Below are positions 12,909 through 43,553 of a stretch of DNA of 64,000 nucleotides, one piece after another. The first letter of the stretch is position 1, and the number at the start of each line of letters is the position of its first letter. The position numbers and the translations under genes were made by a program. Where the stretch lies: positions 1 to 64,000 of the forward strand of contig NZ_PVNB01000016.1 of NCBI RefSeq assembly GCF_003001995.1. Direction: 5' to 3'. Source of the stretch: Orenia metallireducens (GTDB taxonomy: Bacteria; Bacillota; Halanaerobiia; Halobacteroidales; Halobacteroidaceae). The notes below the pieces were generated by a model. That model had not been told where the DNA came from. It saw only the letters and a list, made by a program, of their open reading frames with translations, and searched no databases.

Positions 12909-13163
12909 TTAAGCACCTTTACCTTCATTAGATATTTCATCTAGGCATTCAGTACAAACAATCTTTCCTTTAAAATCTATAGTATCTCCAGCATTACCAC
13001 AGAAAGTGCAGGCTGGCTCATACTTTCTGAAGATAATCATATTGCTATCCACATAAATTTCTAGAGGGTCTTTAACATCAATTCCTAGAGTTCTTCTTAG
13101 TTCGATTGGGATAACAATTCTTCCTAAATCATCAATTTTTCTAACAATACCTGTTGATTTCAT
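12909..13163 (-). CDS. AbrB-family transcription regulator with zinc-knuckle tail
   Basis: The 84-residue product opens MKSTGIVRKIDDLGRIVIPI and continues ELRRTLGIDVKDPLEIYVD, the swapped-hairpin DNA-binding domain of AbrB/Abh transition-state regulators. The C-terminal half has CTFCG and CTEC pairs about 19 residues apart, which look like a zinc ribbon and are found in several clostridial relatives. The ATG at 13163, preceded by AAAGGAGAG at good spacing, is preferred over the TTG six bases upstream. A consensus promoter about 145 bases upstream would give a long leader. Confidence 0.85.
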   Translation of the reverse strand: MKSTGIVRKIDDLGRIVIPIELRRTLGIDVKDPLEIYVDSNMIIFRKYEPACTFCGNAGDTIDFKGKIVCTECLDEISNEGKGA

Positions 13164-13307: not shown

Positions 13308-13336
13308 ATTATAACATAAGTGATACTGGTTATCAA
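13308..13336 (-). promoter_or_regulatory. Sigma-A promoter for the abrB-like gene
   Basis: On the minus strand TTGATA is followed by a 17-base spacer and TATAAT. This predicts a start near 13301 and a 5' untranslated region of about 138 bases. Confidence 0.65.
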
Positions 13337-13377: not shown

Positions 13378-13497
13378 TTAATTTGTAAATATAAGCGAGT
13401 TTGTTTTTAACAGACAATAAACTATATTTAAATTATTGACAAAAGATATATCTAGTATTATAATGATAATAAGAATCAGTACTAAAGAACTTGCCAT
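13378..13497 (-). CDS. Candidate 39-residue hydrophobic peptide (possible type I toxin)
   Basis: A short frame starts ATG behind a near-perfect TTTAGGAGGTAATTC ribosome site. It encodes a peptide with an extremely hydrophobic N-terminal segment (SLVLILIIIIILDISFV) and a short tail ending LLKTNSLIFTN. Size and composition resemble membrane-acting type I toxins or small membrane peptides. Its first half is read from the strand opposite a perfect sigma-A promoter, so the Ile-rich segment could be a by-product of TATAAT-rich DNA. It is listed because of the ribosome site; expression is unproven. Confidence 0.35.
   Translation of the reverse strand: MASSLVLILIIIIILDISFVNNLNIVYCLLKTNSLIFTN
13436..13464 (+). 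promoter_or_regulatory. Perfect consensus sigma-A promoter
   Basis: TTGACA, a 17-base spacer, then TATAAT, predicting a start near 13471. No protein-coding frame follows before the terminator at 13539-13576, so the transcript should be a small RNA of about 106 nt. Confidence 0.7.
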
Positions 13498-13576
13498 GAA
13501 TTACCTCCTAAAATTGAATAATATCTATTGAATCAAAGGGCAACAGTATTATTTGAATAGTACTGTTGCTTTTTTA
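13471..13576 (+). ncRNA. Candidate small RNA antisense to the 39-codon ORF
   Basis: The unit is bounded by a consensus promoter and a good terminator. It contains ACCTCCT at 13503-13509, complementary to a Shine-Dalgarno sequence. It is exactly antisense to the ribosome site and start codon of the minus-strand peptide ORF. It could be the antitoxin RNA of a type I pair, or a trans-acting regulator that masks ribosome sites. No known family was recognised. Confidence 0.5.
13539..13576 (+). terminator. Terminator of the candidate small RNA
   Basis: GCAACAGTATT pairs with AGTACTGTTGC (one mismatch), then TTTTTTA. Confidence 0.8.
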
Positions 13577-13683: not shown

Positions 13684-13781
13684 TAGGTGTTCGGTAGATA
13701 GGTGGCTGAATGGTTAGGCAGTTGGATTTTCCTAATCCCTACCCACCTGCCGCCTAAATGTCGCTTTTTCTCTATATTGTG
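13684..13781 (-). repeat. Dispersed palindromic repeat, family A, copy 1
   Basis: An imperfect palindrome of about 98 bases. On the minus strand it aligns closely with 25168-25273 (AGAAAAAGCGACATTTAGG, AGGTGGGTAGGGATTAGGAA, AATCCAACTGCCTAACCA). A shorter diverged copy is at 38690-38766. Confidence 0.75.
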
Positions 13782-13929: not shown

Positions 13930-14925
13930 ATGGAATCTAAATTAAATTTAAAGCAGTCTGATCAGCTACATAGTAAGAATAAGGCTATTGCCCTAGATAG
14001 TGAAAAGGTTTATGAGATATTGATTATAGGAGGAGGCCCAGCTGGACTTTCTGCAGCAATTTATTGTATGAGAAAGGGAATTGAGACAGGTTTAATTACT
14101 GAAGATATAGGTGGACAACTGTTATACACTATAGATATAGAGAATTATATCGGTTATAGATATATTGAAGGGGCACAGCTAGTTGAGAAATTTAGAGCTC
14201 AGGTAGAACAGTTTGAGATAGGATTTGAACAGGGCTCAAAAGTAACAGCTATAGATATTAATGATAAGATTAAGAAGGTAAGTACAGCTGCAGGGAAGAC
14301 TTATCAAGCTCGTGCTCTGATTATTGCCACAGGAAAGGTTTCAAGAACTTTGGGTATAGCTGGAGAAGAAGAGTTAACTGGTAGAGGAGTCTCTTATTGT
14401 GCTACCTGTGATGCCCCTTTGTATAGAGGGAAAAAGGTAATAGTTGTAGGAGGTGGTAACTCAGGAGTAGAGGCGAGTATTGACTTGGCTAAATTGGCTG
14501 AGCAAGTAACTCTAATTCAAGACCAAGATAGATTGACAGCAGATCAAATCTTAATTGATAAGTTGGATAAATTCAACAATGTGAATATCTTAACTGAACA
14601 TGAGTTAGTAGAGATTAAAGGTGAGCAACTGGTTAATAGTGTTGTAATCAGAGACAAGAAGAATAATCAGCAAAGAGAGATGGAGATCAATGGAGTATTT
14701 GTGGAGATTGGTCTTGTGCCAAATACAGAGTTTATCGATAATAAGCTAGAATTAAATCCCTATAACGAGATAGTAATCGATTGTGAATGTAAAGCCAGTG
14801 TTGAAGGGGTTTTTGCAGCTGGAGATGTAACCTCTGTTCCCTTTAAGCAGATTATTATAGCAGCAGGTGAAGGTTCTAAAGCTGCTTTAGTAGCCTATGA
14901 TTATATTTTAAAGTTAGCAGAGTAA
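13930..14925 (+). CDS. trxB: Thioredoxin reductase-like flavoprotein
   Basis: The 331-residue product has an FAD-binding GGGPAGLSAAIYCMRKG (about 34-50), the redox-active CATC (about 157-160) and the NAD(P)-binding GGGNSGVEAS. The C-terminal FAD site is GVFAAGDVTSVPFKQI. It has about 25 extra N-terminal residues before the first strand compared with standard TrxB. It should reduce thioredoxin or a related partner with NAD(P)H. No thioredoxin gene is adjacent, so an AhpF- or ferredoxin-linked variant cannot be excluded. GGAGG precedes the ATG by about 10 bases. Confidence 0.87.
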   Translation: MESKLNLKQSDQLHSKNKAIALDSEKVYEILIIGGGPAGLSAAIYCMRKGIETGLITEDIGGQLLYTIDIENYIGYRYIEGAQLVEKFRAQVEQFEIGFEQGSKVTAIDINDKIKKVSTAAGKTYQARALIIATGKVSRTLGIAGEEELTGRGVSYCATCDAPLYRGKKVIVVGGGNSGVEASIDLAKLAEQVTLIQDQDRLTADQILIDKLDKFNNVNILTEHELVEIKGEQLVNSVVIRDKKNNQQREMEINGVFVEIGLVPNTEFIDNKLELNPYNEIVIDCECKASVEGVFAAGDVTSVPFKQIIIAAGEGSKAALVAYDYILKLAE

Positions 14926-18184: not shown

Positions 18185-18616
18185 ATGATTATGATGAATA
18201 GTGATTTTGCTCTTGCTGTGCATAGTTTAGTCTTATTAATTTATAGTCCTGAAAGGATGGAAACTAGTAAGTCTATGGCAGAGAGTATGAAGGTTCATCC
18301 AGTAAGAGTTAGAAAGATATTGAGTCTATTAAGAAAGAATGGATATATTGAATCTAAAGAGGGTGCTAAAGGTGGTTTTATCTTAAAAATATCTGCAGAT
18401 AAAATCTCTTTAAAGGATATCTATAGATTAACATCTAAGAACACACTAAAGCCTAAGTGCCATAGCTGTAATTGTGAGATTGGGGCAAATATTGAGGATG
18501 TATTAGATGTTATATTTTACAAGGCTGAAGAGAGGGTAGGGGAGTTTTTAGAAGAGTATACTATTCAGGATATCTTTAACATATTGAAAAAGAGATGTAA
18601 AGAAAACCGGTCTTGA
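18185..18616 (+). CDS. Rrf2-family transcription regulator
   Basis: The 143-residue product is a winged helix (SDFALAVHSLVLLIYS, SMAESMKVHPVRVRKILSLL, GYIESKEGAKGGFIL) followed by a dimer helix. A cysteine cluster KCHSCNC sits near residues 99-105. Rrf2 proteins (IscR, NsrR, CymR) sense iron-sulfur, NO or thiol status. The compact CxxCxC differs from the wider spacing of IscR/NsrR, so an Fe-S cluster is possible but unproven. The ATG at 18185 follows AAAGGGG. The next promoter overlaps its stop codon. Confidence 0.82.
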   Translation: MIMMNSDFALAVHSLVLLIYSPERMETSKSMAESMKVHPVRVRKILSLLRKNGYIESKEGAKGGFILKISADKISLKDIYRLTSKNTLKPKCHSCNCEIGANIEDVLDVIFYKAEERVGEFLEEYTIQDIFNILKKRCKENRS

Positions 18617-18641
18617 CAAAAGTAACTGTAACAATTATAAT
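18613..18641 (+). promoter_or_regulatory. Perfect sigma-A promoter with overlapping palindrome
   Basis: TTGACA, a 17-base spacer, then TATAAT. The -35 overlaps the stop of the Rrf2 gene. A palindrome TGTAA-N9-TTACA (18627-18645) covers the -10 region and is a likely repressor site, plausibly of the adjacent Rrf2 protein. Confidence 0.65.
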
Positions 18642-43485: not shown

Positions 43486-43553
43486 AATAAAATATCTTGA
43501 CAACAAGGTAAGACCTATATTATAATAACTAATGTTGTCCTAGAGGTGATTAA

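Follow-up and report, generated by a model that had tools for sequence, protein, structure and literature searches.

A small RNA gene shared by three related bacteria, with a predicted anti-Shine-Dalgarno core and a putative Fur-type operator

As read from its sequence, the plus-strand locus that we describe here, in a 64-kb stretch of DNA from Orenia metallireducens (hereafter the window), is a real small RNA (sRNA) gene that is kept in three related bacteria. The sRNA probably shuts off translation of other genes by way of their ribosome-binding sites, and it is probably under the control of an iron-sensing repressor. The interpretation that we favour, with somewhat better than even confidence, is that of a genus-restricted trans-acting sRNA that is regulated by a Fur-family protein, blocks Shine-Dalgarno sites, and belongs to the iron-sparing or iron-homeostasis type.

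The sRNA gene and its opposite strand

The gene spans 13471–13576 (+) and is delimited by a promoter and a terminator, by a block of conservation, and by covariance-model matches in three species. The initial annotation had proposed an RNA of ~106 nt bounded by a perfect TTGACA-17-TATAAT promoter and a terminator, and all three elements are confirmed from the sequence, the start of the RNA being placed from the promoter to within a few bases. The promoter is of the sigma-70 type (13436–13464, +; 12/12 match), with TTGACA at 13436–13441, TATAAT at 13459–13464, and a 17-nt spacer between them. Promoters with 12/12 matches and 16–18-nt spacing occur three times in the window vs 0.12 times expected from shuffles; the other two perfect TTGACA/TATAAT promoters are at 18613–18641 (+) and 43497–43526 (+). 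The intrinsic terminator (13535–13576, +) consists of a strong stem (13535–13574) and a U tract; its 18-pair helix is 100% paired in the three species, and both sides have changed in five pairs. The folding z-score of the RNA (−3.2) is due almost wholly to this terminator, and the 5′ part of the RNA is without stable stems.

Searched at the DNA level, 41 related genomes yielded the element in one further species (G001; 78% identity), and reading of the abrB neighbourhood revealed it in a third species of the genus (G002). At all three loci, the RNA adjoins the same abrB-like gene in divergent orientation. In O. metallireducens, this gene (12909–13163, −) encodes an abrB-like regulator with a MazE/AbrB fold and a Cys motif (PF04014), and its own promoter probably lies near 13336–13308, where there is a promoter-like match. 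Identity to G001 is 75% in the RNA and 85% in the promoter vs 42% just past the terminator. A covariance model built on O. metallireducens and G001 recovers G002 with E = 2.4e-05, and the promoter hexamers are TTGACA/TATAAT in G001 and TTGATA/TATAAT in G002. Only the promoter with its putative Fur-type box, a 12-nt core, and the terminator stem persist across the three species. The locus thereby has what defines a stand-alone intergenic RNA, i.e. its own promoter, its own terminator, and conservation.

A thioredoxin-reductase-like (trxB-like) gene (13930–14925, +) lies downstream and outside the sRNA unit. The terminator is on the strand of this gene and ~350 nt upstream of it, as would suit a cis-acting leader or attenuator of trxB. 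However, the trxB-like gene is an internally deleted 87-codon remnant in G001, and its G002 counterpart is separated from the RNA by a group II intron, recognized by its reverse-transcriptase fragments. Both species have nevertheless kept the RNA, and similarity falls to background right after the terminator. Because the RNA persists despite the remnant and the intron, we conclude that the sRNA is a stand-alone gene. A leader or riboswitch would be expected to keep its association with the downstream gene, which is lost in G001 and interrupted in G002, and we regard this explanation as very unlikely. Between the sRNA and trxB, the window also contains a G+C-richer tRNA-like stretch (13697–13757; GGTGGCTGAATGGTTAGGCAG...CCACCTGCCGCC) for which there is no ARAGORN or Rfam match and no counterpart at that place in G001.

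On the minus strand, the same DNA contains a frame of 39 codons behind GGAGGT-N5-ATG (13378–13497, −). These letters are present as the initial annotation had reported them, and its headline proposal was that they encode the small hydrophobic toxin of a type I toxin–antitoxin module with the plus-strand RNA as the antisense antitoxin. As in such modules, a small RNA here overlaps the ribosome site of a small ORF in antisense, and the good Shine-Dalgarno site, the ATG, and the Ile/Leu run agree with this geometry. A comparison of the peptide and the RNA in relatives, which the initial annotation had called for, gives a different answer: the RNA, promoter, and terminator are kept in G001 and G002, whereas the peptide is not. 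In G001, the frame is shifted and reads MAKFLNNNSYYHYTFR, i.e. 16 unrelated residues followed by a stop, while in G002 the strand reads GGAGGTAAATCATATAAAAC, with no ATG behind GGAGGT. Moreover, the 39-codon frame is the reverse complement of the seed flank, the operator, and the promoter; its Ile-rich stretch is the −10 and operator DNA in reverse, and its product has no Pfam match. Because the minus-strand ORF is not conserved, being broken in G001 and absent from G002 where a type I module would have a conserved hydrophobic toxin, it is very unlikely to be coding, and we reject the toxin–antitoxin interpretation as extremely improbable. Conservation of the RNA and loss of the peptide instead support the alternative that the initial annotation had offered, namely a C-rich trans-acting regulator and an accidental ORF. 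The minus strand has the look of a ribosome site with an ATG because an RNA directed against ribosome sites mirrors its target site. This is a trap in genome reading: the opposite strand of a ribosome-site-directed sRNA mimics a gene whose ribosome site is perfect.

The earlier statement that the RNA itself holds no ORF holds in substance and fails to the letter, in that an ATG frame of 11 residues and a stop exists on the plus strand (13496–13531, +). We considered a peptide encoded by the plus-strand RNA and rejected it: the frame is not credible as a gene because it lacks a Shine-Dalgarno site and because G001 has lost the ATG.

The sRNA appears to be confined to the genus. When 59 genomes of the class were searched with the covariance model, clear matches came from the three genus members only, and the next matches in the other 56 genomes (E 0.005–0.09) lack the core or resemble ordinary gene starts. 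No Rfam family reaches its gathering score in the window, and the low-threshold matches are chance-like hairpins. A scan for promoter, core, and T-run through 84,980 species genomes, a set that may omit the window's own genus, returned 101 stretches; no evident homologue is present among the 80 of these 101 that were read, most of which look like coding DNA or gene starts viewed antisense. The carriers of the sRNA thus number three genomes. Two other RNAs deserve mention. One is a weak covariance-model match with no Rfam match in another family of the class (G041; L328 1481–1605), which combines a Fur-like box (14/18) and a TTGACA/TATAAT promoter with a C-rich single-stranded loop (UACCCCUUAAUCACCU) and a strong terminator, and which lies upstream of a metal-binding-domain gene; by these features, it looks like an independent candidate RNA of the same design. 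The other is a different conserved RNA in Neobacillus/Bacillus (L067 2463–2569, L105 2272–2380, L122 965–1077) that contains ACCTCCTAAAAT, a hairpin, and a terminator, and whose promoter carries an ArgR-like box (TTGAATAAATATTCA); it is possibly an arginine-linked small RNA.

The anti-Shine-Dalgarno core and candidate targets

The ACCTCCT motif to which the initial annotation had drawn attention is present at 13503–13509, within a 12-nt anti-Shine-Dalgarno core, ACCUCCUAAAAU (ACCTCCTAAAAT in the RNA; 13503–13514, +), which we propose as the seed. This core is invariant in the three species and is the longest part of the RNA that is identical across all of them. It is complementary to AUUUUAGGAGGU and mostly single-stranded, with a mean unpaired probability of 0.85 in O. 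metallireducens, 0.80 in G001, and 0.62 in G002. Fur-regulated iron-sparing sRNAs would be expected to expose a C-rich seed able to pair with Shine-Dalgarno sites; the sRNA has such a stretch, and the pairing itself is predicted. A second motif, UUGCCAU (13491–13497, +), is the complement of AUGGCAA and sits at start-codon distance from the core in O. metallireducens and G001; it is absent from G002. The extended anti-target pattern TAGGAGGTNATTNATGGCA has exact matches at the sRNA loci only among the eight genomes searched.

We ranked candidate targets by seed matches in the three genomes and against 218 control gene starts. The start of the gene for the cysteine-rich protein DUF1540 is predicted to pair with −32.6 kcal/mol in O. 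metallireducens and −43.3 kcal/mol in G001 vs control means of −17.5 and −18.0 kcal/mol, respectively, and this pairing extends from the Shine-Dalgarno site through AUGGCAA. When the flanks of the sRNA were shuffled and ACCTCCT was kept, the DUF1540 energies were reached in 5/5000 (O. metallireducens) and 1/5000 (G001) cases. For ferritin, the seed matches with at most one mismatch in 3/3 species and perfectly in G001 and G002, while the energy is average in O. metallireducens. The z-scores in O. metallireducens, G001, and G002 are −3.0, −5.3, and −1.7 for DUF1540 and +0.1, −1.7, and −3.0 for ferritin. Neither is significant after correction for ~3500 genes, no iron-protein candidate reaches genome-wide significance, and no candidate target is strong across all three species. 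Other seed candidates are enoyl-ACP reductase (FabI) and a CsoR-type repressor in O. metallireducens and G001, and Nfu and superoxide reductase in G001. In G001, nfu has a perfect ATTTTAGGAGGTGA ribosome site. DUF1540, ferritin, Nfu, superoxide reductase, FabI, and the CsoR-type repressor are therefore suggestive as candidate targets, i.e. leads and not proof.

Alternatively, such a core might be a general anti-Shine-Dalgarno decoy: resembling the 16S rRNA 3′ end (AUCACCUCCU), it would act on strong ribosome sites at large and not on selected mRNAs. The core region of G001 reads AUCACCUCCU, the core matches many genes, and even the control starts average −17.5 to −18 kcal/mol, all of which would fit a decoy. 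However, the invariant stretch continues beyond the Shine-Dalgarno complement into UAAAAU, and the anti-start motif UUGCCAU is also kept in O. metallireducens and G001, pointing to specific pairing. We consequently hold a general decoy to be improbable and continue with selected mRNAs as the targets of the sRNA.

A putative Fur-type operator

A putative Fur/PerR-type operator, TATAATGATAATAAGAATCA, lies over the −10/start region of the sRNA (13459–13478, +); neither the operator nor a link to iron genes was part of the initial annotation. It matches the Fur-type sequence GATAATGATAATnATTATC at 15/18 positions, as does the box of G002 (15/18), while that of G001 matches at 14/18. Markov shuffles reach these scores in 0.2% (O. 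metallireducens; p 0.002), 0.6% (G001), and 0.2% (G002) of cases, and no more than 2 of the window's 198 TATAAT segments equal the score of the O. metallireducens sRNA promoter, which is itself presumably one of them. In G002, the RNA-model alignment places a perfect 15-mer palindrome (TGATAATAATTATCA) at the operator position. In O. metallireducens, feoAB is preceded by a similar box (AGATAATGATAATAAGGGTCA), and the one other place in its own genome that the sRNA promoter matches at the DNA level is the promoter of the encapsulated ferritin (PF22277) and encapsulin (PF04454) operon. Over 52 bp (L003 1501–1552; C9:81294), the two promoters are 77% identical, with TATAATrATAATAAGAAT in common, and the operon has a neelaredoxin-like gene next to it in divergent orientation.

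O. metallireducens has three Fur-family paralogues, which, from their neighbours and sequences, look like Fur, Zur, and PerR. The fur-like gene is preceded by TGATTATCATT-type boxes, the zur-like gene adjoins znuBC-like genes, and the perR-like gene adjoins mdh. In the perR-mdh-nfu cluster (L302/L322), a PerR-type box separates the divergently oriented perR and mdh genes. Across the genome, Fur-like boxes with up to two mismatches number 308 vs 198 in a reversed control, a background too high for such boxes to be read alone. Because chance alone produces many such AT-rich boxes, and because only 1–2 bases distinguish a Fur box from a PerR box, a Fur-family regulator is better supported than Fur itself, and the operator could, by its sequence, be read by PerR in place of Fur. 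If so, the sRNA would respond to peroxide and not to iron, and would be co-regulated with the encapsulin–ferritin operon. The Bacillus-type PerR box consensus is TTATAATnATTATAA, from which the sRNA's own box (TTATAATGATAATAA) is one base off; a perR-like gene is present, and the sRNA shares TATAATrATAATAAGAAT with the encapsulated-ferritin promoter. On the other hand, the −10 hexamer itself makes up part of that shared match, in G002 the box takes the form of a perfect palindrome of the Fur type, and feoAB carries a similar box. Overall, we judge control by PerR to be rather unlikely and retain an iron-sensing Fur-family repressor as the probable regulator.

Proposed mechanism and relation to known sRNAs

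The gene, its strand, its conservation, the operator likeness, and the exposed core are read from the sequence, and from these we infer that Fur or PerR would repress the gene, that the RNA would pair with mRNAs and block their translation, and which mRNAs may be its targets. In our model, the Fur-family repressor would leave the operator at low iron (or in response to peroxide, if it is PerR), allowing the RNA to be made. In selected mRNAs, the core would then pair with Shine-Dalgarno sites of the AUUUUAGGAGGU type, and in some of them pairing may extend to the start codon, where UUGCCAU would meet AUGGCAA. Ribosome binding would thereby be blocked, possibly with the aid of Hfq, which is encoded in 3/3 genomes. 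At a lower level of confidence, and as an unlikely elaboration, we speculate that the sRNA represents an undescribed genus-specific family of iron-responsive sRNAs in anaerobic Firmicutes, independent of FsrA, IsrR, and RyhB, that controls ferritin and DUF1540 and, with an operator like that of the encapsulated-ferritin nanocompartment, might move iron from cytosolic ferritin to encapsulin.

In the open literature, we found no report of such an RNA for this bacterial group, in so far as the genome could be assigned to one (tentatively the Halanaerobium kind); a study of Fur in C. difficile has a single mention of 'small RNA', in its reference list (PMC6311696). If the link to Fur is true, anti-Shine-Dalgarno iron-sparing sRNAs would have emerged once more, in an anaerobic lineage for which we found none described, and DUF1540, a family with no assigned function, would gain a testable tie to metal or redox control.

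Two sRNAs of other Firmicutes offer the closest comparison. IsrR of Staphylococcus is Fur-repressed, conserved, and confined to its genus, and acts at Shine-Dalgarno sites through C-rich single-stranded regions; its ~174 nt form several stem-loops and include three C-rich regions (PMC9410917). The O. metallireducens RNA is similarly genus-confined, with a putative Fur-type box at its promoter, a C-rich, mostly single-stranded part predicted to pair with Shine-Dalgarno sites, and its own terminator, but it is ~106 nt long, has one ACCUCCUAAAAU core and lacks stable 5′ stems, and we saw no relation between the two in sequence or neighbourhood. FsrA of Bacillus subtilis is a Fur-repressed iron-sparing sRNA (PMC9410917, PMC12871923) that binds Shine-Dalgarno sequences via a C-rich motif (PMC9410917). 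The O. metallireducens RNA shares such a motif and, putatively, Fur-type control, but it lies at a different locus and matched no Rfam family. The authors of the IsrR study noted that IsrR and FsrA-type sRNAs have no common synteny or homology (PMC9410917).

The likeness extends to regulatory logic in more distant bacteria. RyhB and PrrF are iron-responsive sRNAs of Proteobacteria that have Fe-S and iron-storage proteins among their targets and pair through other seeds, with Hfq; we found no sequence relation between them and the O. metallireducens RNA. Judged by its sequence features, the O. metallireducens RNA fits the FsrA/IsrR functional class, by function-like features rather than by homology.
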